Assembly: GCF_001592735.1 (NCBI RefSeq)
Contig: NZ_LUKE01000006.1
Span: forward strand, 192,738-256,737
Reading direction: 5' to 3'
DNA length: 64,000 bases
Origin: Bdellovibrio bacteriovorus
GTDB lineage: Bacteria; Bdellovibrionota; Bdellovibrionia; Bdellovibrionales; Bdellovibrionaceae
Shown: in pieces, positions 23,882 through 33,139 of the stretch
Layout: every line of letters starts with the position of its first letter
Numbering within the stretch: the stretch's first letter is position 1
Made by a program: the position numbers and the translations under genes
Notes under the pieces: generated by a model
Told to the model about the DNA's origin: nothing
Seen by the model: only the letters and a program-made list of their open reading frames with translations
The model's database searches: none

Positions 23882-25498
23882 ATGCGGAGACTTTACACAC
23901 TGGTTTTGGTCCTGGCCATGATGGCTGGTTGTGCACATAAAAATGATGGTGCTTCAACAAAACAAATCCCAGGAACGGGACCAACCTCGGAATCAGAGAT
24001 CAAAGACATCTCTTCATTCCGTTTGTCTGATCCGGAAGGCCCTAAGGTGGTCGATCAGGAGTTGGAAACAATTCCTACAGAAGTAAATCCCTTGGTTGAA
24101 AAGTGGATTGCCTATTTCCAAGGACGGGGACGTCCTCATATGGAACGTTACTTAGCTCGTTCCACTCGTTATGAAAAACTAATGAAAAAAGTTTTGCGTG
24201 ATAACGGTCTTCCTGAAGACTTGTTCTATATCGCATTGATTGAGTCCGGATTTAGTTCGCATGCCACCTCGCACGCTTCGGCGGTCGGTTACTGGCAGTT
24301 TATTCGCGGAACGGGAAAACGGTATGGTTTAGAGATCACACCGTTTGTGGACGAACGTCGTGACCCGGTATTTGCCACGCAAGCGGCGGCTGAATATTTC
24401 AAAGGTTTATATTCAGTTTTTGGATCTTGGTATTTGGCGATGGCTTCTTACAACGTGGGTGAAAACCGGGTGAAGCGTGAAGTGATGAATCACTACACGC
24501 GTGATTTTTGGGAGCTAGCTCGTAAAAAACGTTTGCCTAAAGAAACAATCAATTACGTTCCTAAATTTATTGCGGCAAAAATGATCGCTAAAGAACCAGA
24601 TAAATATGGTTTCGGCGAAATCGATTACTTGCCACCAATTGAGTTTGATCACATCACTTTGACTAAAGCAGTGAATCTTCGCGCGATGGCCGATAAGTTG
24701 TCTTTGAACTATGAAGACTTCAAAGCTTTGAATCCTCGTTTTAAAGGTGAAGTGGCGACGCTGAAAGGTTCTGATTTGGTTTTACGTATTCCTCCAGGGA
24801 TGACAGAAACGGCCGTTGTGGCGGCAAATGAATCCGTGGTTGAAAGTGTGCAGTTCATCGCCGACTCGGGCGATACGACATCTTATCGTGTTCGTCGTGG
24901 TGATACTTTAAGCACGATTGCTCGCCGTTATCGTACGACGGTGGCCTACCTTCGTGATTTGAATGATCTTCCTCGTCGTAAACCCATGAAAGTGGGCATG
25001 CGTTTGTATGTTCCAGATCGTACACCGGTGAAAGATCGTCCAACCACCGCAGGTTCTTTGGCGAAACGTTCAAAAAATGCAGACTCCGTTGTGAAAAACA
25101 CAGTTTCGGTAAGTGCTGATGGTCGTCATTACATCGTGCAATCGGGTGATTCTTTATACACAATCGCGCGCAAGTATTCGACCAGTGTTTCTGAGCTTCA
25201 ACGCTTAAATAACATCAAACGCGGTCGTGTGTTGAAAGTAGGAATGAAAATCATCGTTCCAAATCCAGACAGCACATCCATGACTCGTGGGGTGGCGAGC
25301 TCGGTTGCTAAGGCAACCCCTGTTAAGTCAGCGCCAAAACAACGTGTTCACGTGGTTCGTCGTGGAGAAAACCTTTCCGTGATCGCGGCTCGTTACAATG
25401 TGCCATTGACCGATATCAAGCAGAAAAACAATATCCGCAATGCTTCGACACTTTTAGTGGGAACGCGCATTTTAATTCCGCCGGTCGCCTCTAATTAA
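23882..25498 (+). CDS. mltD: membrane-bound lytic transglycosylase MltD-like, three LysM
   Basis: A 538-residue lipoprotein. The leader MRRLYTLVLVLAMMAGC ends in a lipobox with C17. The SLT domain spans about 95-240, with catalytic E121 (IALIESGFSSHATS) and motifs SAVGYWQFIRGTGKRYG and WYLAMASYNVGENRV. Three LysM domains follow at roughly 338-383, 418-462 and 490-535, each beginning with the Y/H-x-V-x-x-G-(D/E)-(T/S/N)-L pattern, joined by Ser/Lys-rich linkers. LysM binds the GlcNAc of peptidoglycan. E. coli MltD has two LysM, so three is a modest expansion. It has its own short upstream region with a weak hairpin at 23811-23850. Confidence 0.96.
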   Translation: MRRLYTLVLVLAMMAGCAHKNDGASTKQIPGTGPTSESEIKDISSFRLSDPEGPKVVDQELETIPTEVNPLVEKWIAYFQGRGRPHMERYLARSTRYEKLMKKVLRDNGLPEDLFYIALIESGFSSHATSHASAVGYWQFIRGTGKRYGLEITPFVDERRDPVFATQAAAEYFKGLYSVFGSWYLAMASYNVGENRVKREVMNHYTRDFWELARKKRLPKETINYVPKFIAAKMIAKEPDKYGFGEIDYLPPIEFDHITLTKAVNLRAMADKLSLNYEDFKALNPRFKGEVATLKGSDLVLRIPPGMTETAVVAANESVVESVQFIADSGDTTSYRVRRGDTLSTIARRYRTTVAYLRDLNDLPRRKPMKVGMRLYVPDRTPVKDRPTTAGSLAKRSKNADSVVKNTVSVSADGRHYIVQSGDSLYTIARKYSTSVSELQRLNNIKRGRVLKVGMKIIVPNPDSTSMTRGVASSVAKATPVKSAPKQRVHVVRRGENLSVIAARYNVPLTDIKQKNNIRNASTLLVGTRILIPPVASN

Positions 25499-27478: not shown

Positions 27479-28798
27479 ATGGAAAATTCCAGCTATCTTC
27501 CTGAAGCTCAAGCCTTGCAAGAAGTTCGTCAGCACGATAACTACGTCAAGATCGATCGTGCTTTTGGTTGGCTGATGATCGGGCAGTGGGTGTTTGGAAT
27601 TTTGGCGGCCGTGGTGATTTCGCCCTACACCTGGATTGGCGAGGCCAAACAGGTGCACCTTCACGTGTGGGCCTCCGTCCTGCTGGGGGGCTTGATTTGT
27701 CTTTTTCCATTTTATTTAAGTCGTCGTCAGGCGGGTGATTTTCTTACTCGTCATGTGATGGCGGTGGCGCAGCTTTTATATTCATCGTTATTGATTCACT
27801 TGATGGGCGGGCGGATCGAGGCCCATTTTCATATATTTGGATCATTGGCTTTTTTAGCCTACTATCGTGATGCCAAAGTGATCTACACGGCTTCGGTGGT
27901 CACTGTCTTAGATCATTTGATCCGGGGTTATATTTATCCTTTATCTGTGTACGGAGTTTTAAATGCTTCAGAGTGGCGGTGGCTAGAGCATACCGCGTGG
28001 GTGATTTTTGAAGATGTCTTTTTATTGATCGCAATTAAAAATGGCCTGCATGAAATTAAGAAAAGCACGATGTATGAAGCCGCTCTGATCAAAGAGCGCG
28101 AGCGAGCTTTGAATCTTTCAAAAATCAAAACTAGATTTTTATCTAATATGAGTCACGAAATTCGCACGCCATTAAACAGCATTGTGGGCTACAGTGATTT
28201 ATTAGGGCAGACGCCGTTGAACCCGGAACAACAGCAGTATATCGGCACGATTCATCGTTGTACCGAATCGCTATTGGGGGTGGTGAATGATGTCTTAGAT
28301 ATCAGCCGAATTGAAAGCGGGCGTTTGACGGTGGAAAAAGGGGCTTTTGATATTCGTGAACTGCAATCCACTTTGCAGGGAATTTTTGCCGTTCAGTGCG
28401 AAAAAAAGAAAATCCAATTGCGCGTGATTACCGAGGGCGATTGGCCGCCGATGGTCACGGGAGATCGTCATCGCTTGCAGCAGGTCTTAGTGAATCTTTT
28501 AGGAAATGCGGTCAAATTCACGCAAGAGGGTTCGGTTCACTTGCACCTTCGTCGGGACGGCGATTGTGCGATTTGGTCGGTCAGTGACACGGGCATCGGC
28601 ATTCGACCCGAGAATCAGGAATTAGTTTTTGGTCCTTTCACGCAAGAAGATGCCTCCACGGCTCGCAAATTTGGCGGCTCAGGCTTAGGCCTGACGATAA
28701 GTCGTGCGCTTGTAGAGCAAATGGGTGGTGAATTAAAAATGCAAAGCACCCCAGGGGTGGGATCTGTTTTTGAATTTTCCGTGAAAGTCATTGAGTAG
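27479..28798 (+). CDS. multi-pass membrane sensor histidine kinase
   Basis: A 439-residue kinase. The N-terminal 190 residues form five or six membrane segments with an unusual set of His (H60, H62, H107, H116, H118, H146) in conserved-looking blocks VHLHVWASVLLGG, HLMGGRIEAHFHIFGSLAFLAYYRD and LDHLIRGYIYPLS. A short coiled coil leads to HisKA with phosphorylated H226 (NMSHEIRTPLNSIVG). The ATPase domain has an N box (NLLGNAVKFT), G1 (DTGIGI) and G2 (GGSGLGLTIS). There is no receiver or HPt domain and no response regulator beside it. The coupled CPC thioredoxin-like gene suggests redox or metal sensing; this is inference. Confidence 0.92.
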   Translation: MENSSYLPEAQALQEVRQHDNYVKIDRAFGWLMIGQWVFGILAAVVISPYTWIGEAKQVHLHVWASVLLGGLICLFPFYLSRRQAGDFLTRHVMAVAQLLYSSLLIHLMGGRIEAHFHIFGSLAFLAYYRDAKVIYTASVVTVLDHLIRGYIYPLSVYGVLNASEWRWLEHTAWVIFEDVFLLIAIKNGLHEIKKSTMYEAALIKERERALNLSKIKTRFLSNMSHEIRTPLNSIVGYSDLLGQTPLNPEQQQYIGTIHRCTESLLGVVNDVLDISRIESGRLTVEKGAFDIRELQSTLQGIFAVQCEKKKIQLRVITEGDWPPMVTGDRHRLQQVLVNLLGNAVKFTQEGSVHLHLRRDGDCAIWSVSDTGIGIRPENQELVFGPFTQEDASTARKFGGSGLGLTISRALVEQMGGELKMQSTPGVGSVFEFSVKVIE

Positions 28799-28825
28799 GA
28801 ATTTAGATTCCTGTTGCGCCTAAAA

Positions 28826-28863
28826 AAGTGCTTGCGAGGAATCGTCTGTGATAACTCGCAAGC
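28826..28863 (-). terminator. rho-independent terminator of the riboswitch RNA
   Basis: On the minus strand GCTTGCGAG, a 16-nt loop, CTCGCAAGC, then ACTTTTTT. It ends the non-coding RNA and does not face the kinase gene. Confidence 0.9.
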
Positions 28864-28947
28864 TAAGGGGAATGAAACCAATCCTTGTATGTATATAACT
28901 TTGAACCTTCCATATGCACACCTCTGATTCCTCAGGTGACTCATTGA

Positions 28948-29034
28948 CCTTTGGCAGCTGGCTGACATGGCTTGCGCCGACATCCCTTTAGCTTTGCGTC
29001 CCAGCGTTTCCACTGGTTTGCCTTGAGGCAAAGG
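28948..29034 (-). promoter_or_regulatory. class I cyclic-di-GMP riboswitch aptamer (GEMM-I)
   Basis: On the minus strand the order is CCTTTG (P1 5'), GGCAAACC (29015-29022 region), a stem CAGTGG/CGCTGG capped by a GAAA tetraloop, GGGACGCAAAGC, AAGGG, a variable stem, then GTCAGCCAGCTGCC and CAAAGG (P1 3'). These are the hallmark blocks of GEMM-I, including the GNRA tetraloop and its CC-rich receptor stem. Nothing beyond the aptamer looks like a gene control platform for a downstream gene. Confidence 0.93.
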
Positions 29035-29328
29035 AAGGATCTAAATCCTAACGAGTATAACCCTAGGAACCTCCTTTGAGTTATTTATCGCCCCGGCCGG
29101 GCCGAAGCATCCCGTAGATCCAACCTTAAATGTTTATCCGTCATTCTTTATCGAGGCCCAGACCGCATTAAACCTCGTGGTAGCAATCCTGGTGATTCGC
29201 ACGTCACTTCGGTGGTTCGTCATGATGATCATGTATTCTATGTTTCATCTCGCGTCCTTTCTTAGCTGGCCCAATAAGCATTCGCCTACCCGTGGTAAGC
29301 CTCACGAGCCTTCGGTTTCAACTCTTTT

Positions 29329-29358
29329 AGGATAGCTCGACCAAAGTTTTGTTTTCAA
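29329..29358 (-). promoter_or_regulatory. candidate promoter of the riboswitch RNA
   Basis: On the minus strand TTGAAA (29358-29353), 18 bases, TATCCT (29334-29329), placing the RNA start near 29322. Assigned by eye. Confidence 0.45.
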
Positions 29359-29450
29359 GAGGGTGAGATTCGATTCTCAAAATACGTCACAAAAAAGCGG
29401 AAAATCGTCTCGAGTGCAGAAAATCGGGGTGTTTTGTGTTTAAGGATGAA

Positions 29451-30846: not shown

Positions 30847-32301
30847 ATGAAGAATCTTGCAGTACTAGCCTTTGTTTTGTTTTCCATTATTTCCGCCACC
30901 ACCCACGCGCAGTGGGGTGCGATCATTCGCACGACAACCACGCCTTCCAATAACGGAAAAGCCGAAGTCGCCGCGCCTGGTTTTCCGATTCTGGAGTTTC
31001 CCACCCCTGAAAGTGATCGCAAAATCATGGATCAGTTGCAAAGCCTGGTGAAAGAATCAGGATGGTTTTCAACTATTCATATCCGAGTCAAAGATGGCAT
31101 CGTGGTGCTTGAAGGAAACATCAAAAGTCGCGAGCACTTGAATGTGTTTTTAGAAACCGCGCAACGCTTGCCGATGACGGTGGCGGTGATCAACAAGGTG
31201 CGGGTGCAGCCGCCGCTGGCGGACAACATTGAGCCCGTCATCGAACAGCTGCGTGATTTTGGTCAAAAAGCGTGGCAAATGCTACCGGTGCTTTTGATCA
31301 GTATCTTTGTGGTCGTCTTTTTTATTTTCTTTGGCGGGTATCTTTCTGACGGAATTAGAAATATTTGGAAGTGGCGAATTCCCAATCCTTTTTTGTTGGC
31401 TTTAGTTACGCGGCTGACCATGGTGCCGATCTGGATTCTGGTATTTTATTTTGCGTTAAGAATTGTAGGGGTTTCAAATCTTGAGGCCACAATTATCGGG
31501 GCGACGGGTTTTCTGACTCTGCTTTTCGCGTTGGCCTTTAAAGGGATCGGTGAAAATTATCTGGCTGGTATTTTACTAGCCAGTCGCAGTCCGTTTACAA
31601 AAGGGGATTTAATCAAGGTCGGGGATCATCAAGGGTACGTGCAAAACCTCAATATGCGTGGAACCACGATCATTGATTTTAACGGAAATCTGATTCTTAT
31701 TCCCAATATTATGGTCATTCAGTCGGTCGTTGAAAATCGCACGGCGAACCCCAGCATGCGCACTTCGTTTTTTGTGAACATTGGTTATCATGAATCCATT
31801 TCGCGTGTTCAAGAGCTGATTATCAATGCCTTAAAAGAAGTGAATGGGATTTTGTCCGACCCCGCGCCGAACGTGGTGGTGGAGGAGTTGACTCCGTCCG
31901 CGGTGCGCTTAAGGGTCATGGTGTGGTTAGATGCCAAGAACAGCGCTGAAGCCAGAGTGAAATCGCGCGCGATGATGAAGACAAAAGATATCTTGTTAGT
32001 AAATGGCATCACGATACCCGATGAAGCCCGCGAAATTATTTTTGCCGACGACTTAAAAGTTCAATTGGTGCAAGATGCTGCCCAAAAATCCACGCAAACA
32101 GATCGCAAAGAGCAGATTCGCAGGGCGGCGGCTTACAATTTAGAAGACGCCAAGAAAGAAGAAAATTTGCCGATCGAAGAGCCTAAAGAAAAACTGATGG
32201 ACTTAGCCAAACAAAATCCGTTGCCGGGAAATAAAGATTCATCTGATTTATTAGAACCCTCTAAGCCGAAAGAGGGTTCTGAGGAAGAGAAAAAAAATTA
32301 A
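30847..32301 (+). CDS. mechanosensitive channel MscS family with BON domain
   Basis: A 484-residue inner-membrane protein, start ATG 30847 behind GGGAGG (30837-30842), giving the signal peptide MKNLAVLAFVLFSIISATTHAQ. Residues about 60-120 are a BON domain (DQLQSLVKESGWFSTIHIRVKDGIVVLEGNIKSREHLNVF). Three membrane segments follow. The pore-lining one is near IIGATGFLTLLFALAFKGIGENYLAGILLASRSPF, the MscS TM3 signature, then the beta domain (GDLIKVGDHQGYVQNLNMRGTTI... IPNIMVIQSVVENRT). The charged tail is long and disordered. BON-MscS fusions are membrane-tension or osmotic channels; the BON domain probably contacts periplasmic partners or lipid. Confidence 0.93.
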   Translation: MKNLAVLAFVLFSIISATTHAQWGAIIRTTTTPSNNGKAEVAAPGFPILEFPTPESDRKIMDQLQSLVKESGWFSTIHIRVKDGIVVLEGNIKSREHLNVFLETAQRLPMTVAVINKVRVQPPLADNIEPVIEQLRDFGQKAWQMLPVLLISIFVVVFFIFFGGYLSDGIRNIWKWRIPNPFLLALVTRLTMVPIWILVFYFALRIVGVSNLEATIIGATGFLTLLFALAFKGIGENYLAGILLASRSPFTKGDLIKVGDHQGYVQNLNMRGTTIIDFNGNLILIPNIMVIQSVVENRTANPSMRTSFFVNIGYHESISRVQELIINALKEVNGILSDPAPNVVVEELTPSAVRLRVMVWLDAKNSAEARVKSRAMMKTKDILLVNGITIPDEAREIIFADDLKVQLVQDAAQKSTQTDRKEQIRRAAAYNLEDAKKEENLPIEEPKEKLMDLAKQNPLPGNKDSSDLLEPSKPKEGSEEEKKN

Positions 32302-33092
32302 GGACAAAGTTCGCGCAAGCGATCTGCCATACGCATAAAGCTTTGAGCTTCCGCCCCCGCAGAGTTGGCATCAACCACGGGAATGCCCGCTTCGCAAGAA
32401 AGTCCTACAGACGGGTTGAAGGGAACTTCACCTAGTTTTGGAATGTTTTTGCTTTTGGCGTAGCTATCGATTTCGCCCTTAGGAAATAGCTGCATTTTTT
32501 CGCCATTGGCGGGGTTGATCATATAAGCCATATTTTCAACCATACCCAATAAAGGCACGTTCACGCGCTCAAACATGTCGACTGCTTTTTTGACGTCAAG
32601 CAAAGCTACGTTTTGTGGAGTTGAAACCACCACGGCACCAGCAAGTGGAACTTTTTGCGCGAGGGTCAATTGGATGTCACCAGTCCCAGGTGGCAGGTCT
32701 ACCAAAAGATAATCCAGCTCTCCCCAGTTTACGTCGCGCAGGAATTGGTCCATGGCTTTAAAAAGCATTGGTCCACGCCAAACCACGGCCGAATTTTCTT
32801 CGATCAAGAATCCAATCGACATCAACTTCATCCCATAACGGGTGATGGGTTCAAGCTGGTTCGTCTCGGCGTTAATGTGAGGTTTTTGTCCTAAAGCGCC
32901 TAACATTCGAGGGATGCTCGGGCCATAAATATCGGCATCTAATAAACCGACCTTGCTTTTTTTGCTTAAAGCCATGGCAAGATTGGTCGCCACCGTGCTT
33001 TTTCCCACCCCCCCCTTACCGGAGCTGATCGCAATAATGTGTTTCACTCCGGGAATGCCGGTCTGTTTTTCAAAAGGATTGGGGGCAGCCAT
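32298..33092 (-). CDS. mrp: Mrp/ApbC-type P-loop ATPase lacking the CxxC motif
   Basis: A 264-residue Mrp/NBP35-family ATPase, the Fe-S carrier class. Start ATG 33092 follows AAGGAG. The deviant Walker A is SSGKGGVGKSTVATNLA, and DADIYGPSIPRMLG and LLVDLPPGTGDIQLTL are the other MinD/Mrp motifs. Where bacterial Mrp/ApbC usually has CPxC near ENMAYF, this protein reads AYMINPANGEKMQLF with no Cys, and there is no N-terminal DUF59 (MIP18) domain. Fe-S cluster binding in the classical manner is therefore doubtful. Its stop overlaps the convergent MscS stop by four bases. Confidence 0.9.
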   Translation of the reverse strand: MAAPNPFEKQTGIPGVKHIIAISSGKGGVGKSTVATNLAMALSKKSKVGLLDADIYGPSIPRMLGALGQKPHINAETNQLEPITRYGMKLMSIGFLIEENSAVVWRGPMLFKAMDQFLRDVNWGELDYLLVDLPPGTGDIQLTLAQKVPLAGAVVVSTPQNVALLDVKKAVDMFERVNVPLLGMVENMAYMINPANGEKMQLFPKGEIDSYAKSKNIPKLGEVPFNPSVGLSCEAGIPVVDANSAGAEAQSFMRMADRLRELCP

Positions 33093-33139
33093 AGGGACTC
33101 CTTGATAAATGCTTGCGGACAACGAATAATAGAACTTGG

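Follow-up and report, generated by a model that had tools for sequence, protein, structure and literature searches.

The c-di-GMP riboswitch RNA known as merRNA very probably carries two conserved micro-ORFs under coding selection, one in its 5' domain (ORF1) and one behind the aptamer (ORF2). This is based on a copy in a 64,000-nucleotide stretch of DNA from Bdellovibrio bacteriovorus, called the window here and analysed as a whole, and on related loci in other genomes. We lean towards the view that in Bdellovibrionaceae the RNA would be a translated micro-mRNA with two cistrons, in which c-di-GMP may switch ORF2 and ribosomes may be slowed. Compared with the account published in 2013, order-wide occurrence, ORF1 in the 5' domain and ORF2 behind the aptamer would be new.

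The transcription unit and its relatives

The unit lies on the minus strand. Behind a promoter-like element come about 280 nt of 5' sequence and then the aptamer, which about 90 nt separate from a terminator. The features, with the basis on which each was placed, are:

29371..29382, minus: conserved upstream element TTTTGAGAATCG, 5' of the promoter (genus alignment)
29329..29358, minus: promoter-like TTGAAA-18-TATCCT with conserved spacer ACTTTGGTCGAG (alignment in the genus)
29334-29329, minus: -10 box of the merRNA promoter
28822..29313, minus: predicted merRNA transcript, its 5' end borrowed from the HD100 transcript
29255-29260, minus: Shine-Dalgarno (SD) sequence of micro-ORF 1, AAAGGA
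29204..29248, minus: micro-ORF 1, MKHRIHDHHDEPPK-stop, 14 codons (coding signature, frame-specific)
29070..29077, minus: SD-like element AAAGGAGG 5' of the aptamer, with no start codon behind it (alignment)
29060..29071, minus: long-range helix PX, 5' strand GGTTCCTAGGGT (swap permutation)
29032..28950, minus: GEMM-I (c-di-GMP-I, RF01051) aptamer, 63.5 bits, model positions 1-87, full length
28926..28937, minus: long-range helix PX, 3' strand ACCTGAGGAATC (swap permutation)
28919..28938, minus: hairpin CACC-TGA-GGAA-TCA-GA-GGTG, which would hide the ORF2 SD (alignment)
28919-28925, minus: ORF2 SD, AGAGGTG
28863..28913, minus: micro-ORF 2, MEGSKLYTYKDWFHSP-stop, 16 codons (frame conservation)
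28863-28822, minus: intrinsic terminator, stem GCTTGCGAG/CTCGCAAGC followed by the T-run ACTTTTTT (folding)
32298-33122, minus: mrp, present in the window at a distance from merRNA
23882-25498, plus: mltD, present in the window at a distance from merRNA

The first-pass annotation had proposed a canonical GEMM-I aptamer within an RNA of roughly 500 nt (28822-29320) that ends in a terminator, beside a histidine kinase on the opposite strand, and these claims hold up well. The covariance model (Rfam cmscan) scores the aptamer at 63.5 bits with a gathering threshold of 35, the unit is about 490 nt long and very close to the proposed interval, and its strand is minus. The presence of the histidine kinase was confirmed (27479-28798, plus strand); it converges on the merRNA terminator. 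The aptamer is the sole Rfam match when cmscan is run over the whole window, and it is the only GEMM-I aptamer found in its own 3.93-Mb genome.

In strain HD100, merRNA is a 445-nt RNA from the reverse strand (1,073,741-1,074,185) that lacks a FliA promoter and reaches 2,038,479 RPKM in attack phase compared with 407 in growth phase (Karunker et al. 2013, PMC3627812). It was published as a non-coding RNA in which no conserved ORF lies behind the aptamer, and was reported to lack conservation outside the Bdellovibrio lineage (PMC3627812). The merRNA DNA of the window matches genome G004 at 1,073,742-1,074,262 on the minus strand, and because these coordinates agree with the published locus, G004 is taken as HD100 or an identical assembly. 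Judged by locus and sequence, the window RNA is the local orthologue of HD100 merRNA: the two are alike in having an orthologous locus, a GEMM-I aptamer near the 3' end, a terminator and no conventional gene. Window position 29313 corresponds to the published 5' end of the HD100 RNA; the promoter of the window would set the 5' end about 10 nt further upstream.

A match to the TTGAAA-18-TATCCT consensus is by itself no better than chance in a promoter scan, and it is conservation within the genus that supports the promoter. Loci outside Bdellovibrionaceae seem to share a conserved promoter core, GCG[CT]TA: it was counted in 14 of 30 and in 17 of 27, compared with 4.2 and 3.1 in shuffles. Within Bdellovibrionaceae no such recurrence was seen. 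Of 89 order loci, 37 carry TTTGAGA upstream of the aptamer, where shuffles give 2.8. In some families a palindrome, TCTCA..TGAGA, occupies the position of the TTTTGAGAATCG element upstream of the promoter. This element could be the site of a regulator, which is of interest as HD100 merRNA has no FliA promoter. At the other end of the unit, the terminator scan passed over the real merRNA terminator owing to its long loop, and it was recovered by folding. Among the 86 order loci with enough sequence, 83 have a terminator 50-230 nt past the aptamer, and terminators are far fewer in a control stretch 750-930 nt from the order aptamers.

On the evidence of sequence matches, merRNA is not confined to Bdellovibrio. 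At the DNA level the 621-bp merRNA region has matches in 76 of 141 order genomes, which is far above chance. A GEMM-I aptamer, at one copy per genome, was found in 89 of 140 order genomes and, over the whole phylum, in 137 of 369. In 43 loci the upstream neighbour is mrp, on the strand of the RNA, and in 42 the downstream neighbour is mltD, in antisense; this setting is found mainly in families f1, f5, f6, f7 and f9. Because mrp and mltD recur as neighbours, the merRNA-type RNAs of the order are very probably orthologues, and the histidine kinase, which among the loci compared stands beside merRNA only at the window's own copy, is an incidental neighbour. Between mltD and mrp in the window, kinase, glyoxalase-like, GST-like and MscS-like genes lie beside merRNA.

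Orphan GEMM-I aptamer RNAs also exist in other classes (f22, f26 and others), where the flanking fold is different. In these RNAs (L097-L103, L108-L118, L123) a long-range complement, GAAGAGG...CCTCTTC, lies around the aptamer, and a terminator follows, often with a queE-like gene behind it; this set showed no conserved ORF. In L104 and L105 (f11, in the same class as the order), start-stop pairs come behind the SD-like element that precedes the aptamer, AUG-UGA in one locus and AUG-UAA in the other.

The two candidate micro-ORFs

The RNA had been called gene-less in the first-pass annotation, and this is probably wrong, since a conserved ORF of 14 codons lies 5' of the aptamer and one of 16 codons lies 3' of it. 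The related claim that no gene follows the aptamer stands for conventional genes and fails for micro-ORFs, ORF2 being directly 3' of the aptamer. The suggestion that the 5' domain of 280 nt could be a second module fared better, as it holds the conserved ORF1, and a conserved micro-ORF is the best explanation, at least in part, for this domain as read from the alignments.

ORF1 is found in 21 of 21 loci of the genus. A related ORF1 is found in 63 of 89 order loci, a count that is descriptive as it uses a strict end-motif rule set after viewing the sequences. Relatives elsewhere include MVKRPMDWRLDPPPK, MRARPSGWVADPPPE, MKKAGWLADPKPK and MRRRKFDHRDKSPK, each followed by a stop codon. Outside the genus of the window the usual end is DPPP[K/E]-stop, as seen in f7, f9 and f10; the window has PPK-stop, compared with DDELK-stop in HD100. 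Codon tests, which do not hinge on the end-motif rule in that way and use column shuffles that ignore relatedness, gave a mean BLOSUM62 score of differing codons of 2.51 for the genus-type set (22 unique sequences), compared with -0.01 (sd 0.47) in the shuffles (0/500), and a synonymous fraction of 0.45 compared with 0.17 (0/500). In an independent set from f7 and f9 (12 sequences) the BLOSUM62 value was 1.93, compared with -0.29 when shuffled (0/300). Frames +1 and +2 gave no coding signal in the genus set. The start codons ATG and GTG interchange, and likewise the stops TGA, TAG and TAA. ORF1 is absent from f5, from genus g19 and from some others. Given these codon patterns, it is highly likely that ORF1 is translated.

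ORF2 sits where an expression platform would be expected, past the aptamer and with the terminator immediately behind it. Its frame into a C-rich end, which in the window reads SP-stop, is preserved in 18 of 20 genera of Bdellovibrionaceae; counted by locus the figure is 55 of 58, the exceptions being G025, G048 and G066. At the genus level this gives a binomial probability of 2e-7 if genera are taken as independent and chance as one third, with a start-codon rule that was adapted to the sequences for a few genera and favours the coding hypothesis. The start codon, the intervening codons and the length (7 to 24 codons) differ among Bdellovibrionaceae, and most loci have an SD match of at least 4 bases upstream. 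The HD100 locus has MEGTNTYKDWFHSP-stop, and further versions are MNSFFSEKYRFHSP, MLFNTIQKFHSP, MERFFYSP and MAKQVFPKNSNRFYPP, again each with a stop. In many genera the final codons do not vary even at their third positions, so a constraint on the RNA acts there too. Taken together, the frame conservation makes it likely that ORF2 is translated.

ORF2 was found only in Bdellovibrionaceae and perhaps in f5. In L045 and L076 (f5) the promoter is immediately 5' of the aptamer, ORF1 is missing, and AAGGAGG and an ATG come after the aptamer; in L045 the open frame past the aptamer enters the terminator, which could give a non-stop mRNA. Since each of the two ORFs is missing in some lineages, neither would be needed for the RNA to persist.

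HD100 merRNA also has both micro-ORFs, and they lie inside its mapped transcript. The published description is that of a non-coding RNA restricted to Bdellovibrio, whereas the present analysis points to two conserved micro-ORFs and an order-wide RNA. The presence of ORF2 in the HD100 locus revises the published description of merRNA, and the membership of the window RNA in merRNA stands. Literature searches found no mention of a merRNA peptide or ORF.

Structure around the aptamer and the ligand

Over 82 aligned loci, the AGGAGG of the AAAGGAGG element is conserved to at least 90%. In helix PX the segment past this element pairs with the one before the ORF2 SD, so that the aptamer is enclosed. 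The strands of PX differ greatly between genera, and a swap permutation demonstrates that the predicted helix covaries: over 20 Bdellovibrionaceae genera the summed energy of cognate strands is -238.7 kcal/mol, compared with -201.3 (sd 9.3) for swapped strands, a value reached in 0 of 10,000 permutations. An earlier test with other segment limits and all genera was borderline, and in families other than Bdellovibrionaceae the swap permutation detected no PX signal. The hairpin over the ORF2 SD (the SD2 hairpin) has arms that are compensated in other clades (UAAG/CUUA; CGA/UCG), as judged by eye from alignments. In the genus of the window the 3' strand of PX overlaps this hairpin, and the two structures exclude each other, as in an expression platform. 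When the P1 stem of the aptamer was enforced in an energy model, exposure of the ORF2 SD went up in 3 and down in 16 of 44, with no consistent shift.

One possible refolding model, in which AAAGGAGG pairs with CCUUCCUUU as an alternative to an extended P1, draws no support from covariation because AGGAGG is invariant where the partner varies. It was also observed that UUGAAACC at the predicted 5' end (29315-29322, minus strand) is complementary to GGUUUCA in ORF2 (about 28873-28880), a pairing that is unproven because the 3' motif stays unchanged in sequences that have lost its 5' counterpart.

With regard to the ligand, nucleotide 20 of GEMM-I aptamers selects cGAMP when it is A and c-di-GMP when it is G (PMC6456294). 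At the position-20 site, all 89 order aptamers have GG. Both positions that could carry the number 20 are G. The GG fits c-di-GMP as the predicted ligand. B. bacteriovorus also makes cGAMP (PMC9140294); a cGAMP-type (GEMM-Ib) aptamer was rejected, as position 20 is G in 89 of 89 and never A. The GEMM-Ib cGAMP riboswitches of Geobacter share the aptamer fold with merRNA, but they carry A at position 20 and are found in front of genes for cytochromes and pili (PMC6456294). Compared with the GEMM-I riboswitch family (RF01051) as such, merRNA is alike in its complete aptamer with G at the c-di-GMP-selecting position, and differs in being an orphan with a micro-ORF of 16 codons as its candidate output.

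What the RNA may do

In the reading that we lean towards, that of a translated micro-mRNA with two cistrons, binding of c-di-GMP would shift the balance between helix PX and the SD2 hairpin, and this shift would alter ribosome entry at ORF2. The proline-rich ends at the stops (DPPP[K/E]-stop mostly elsewhere; PPK-stop and SP-stop in the window) would slow ribosomes, and the very abundant RNA would engage ribosomes in a c-di-GMP-dependent manner at the switch between attack and growth. The holding of c-di-GMP would be a by-product of abundance. We infer the control of ORF2 translation by c-di-GMP, its direction and the stalling of ribosomes. PPP is a stall motif that is relieved by EF-P, and the upstream context matters (PMC4176338); a universal stalling role is disfavoured because the window has PPK-stop and HD100 has DDELK-stop. 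In having very short ORFs with an SD, a proline-rich terminus at the stop codon and RNA structure nearby, merRNA resembles leader peptides and EF-P-dependent polyproline stall motifs. Unlike leader peptides, merRNA has no downstream structural gene and has a metabolite aptamer in addition, and ORF1 of HD100 lacks these prolines.

It is also conceivable, although unlikely, that merRNA is a pure reservoir or sponge, an untranslated RNA that would bind c-di-GMP during attack phase and free it when the predator enters its prey. The extreme abundance of the RNA in HD100 during attack phase, with one high-affinity aptamer per molecule (PMC3627812), points this way, as does the persistence of the aptamer in lineages that have neither ORF, and the idea keeps some weight because storage follows from abundance and needs no ORFs. 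It would, however, leave two coding-selected frames and a covarying helix outside the aptamer unexplained, and in the source paper itself storage was offered as a model yet to be validated, that is, as speculation (PMC3627812).

Another alternative is a structured regulatory RNA whose conserved AGGAGG and GGA motifs bind the 30S ribosome or CsrA, with c-di-GMP controlling exposure and the ORFs serving only to load ribosomes or to protect the RNA. Across the order, the AGGAGG ahead of the aptamer shows almost no variation and is kept where its possible pairing partner varies, f7 and f9 have a GGA-rich element past the aptamer without a start codon, a CsrA gene is present, and AGGA/ANGGA occurs 12 times in the window RNA compared with 6.7 (sd 2.6). 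This excess is, however, about 2 sd and is partly made up of SD sites and aptamer bases, and loading alone would not need the conserved amino acids of ORF1, so we regard this alternative as rather improbable, and for a CsrA sponge in particular the motif excess is weak. GEMM-I aptamers usually regulate the gene behind them, but an ordinary cis-acting riboswitch for a conventional downstream gene was rejected as extremely improbable, since the aptamer is followed by a terminator (83 of 86 order loci), the next gene in the window is the convergent histidine kinase, and the downstream mltD is antisense (42 loci).

merRNA has been a puzzle since 2013, as its reads in HD100 about equal those of all protein-coding genes together and it has a c-di-GMP sensor but seemed to lack any gene. 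A testable output would now be given by the two conserved micro-ORFs, of which one is at the expression platform; ORF2 also contradicts the published claim that the aptamer has no conserved ORF behind it. The orthologous locus over the order marks merRNA as an old element and not an oddity of a single genus. As a tentative and rather doubtful extension of the micro-mRNA reading, merRNA might be gated by c-di-GMP and, at prey entry, use its SD-like elements and the proline-rich ends of its micro-ORFs to tie up or release ribosomes, or else emit two micropeptides. If true, the output of this riboswitch would be a peptide of fewer than 20 residues, or ribosome occupancy itself.
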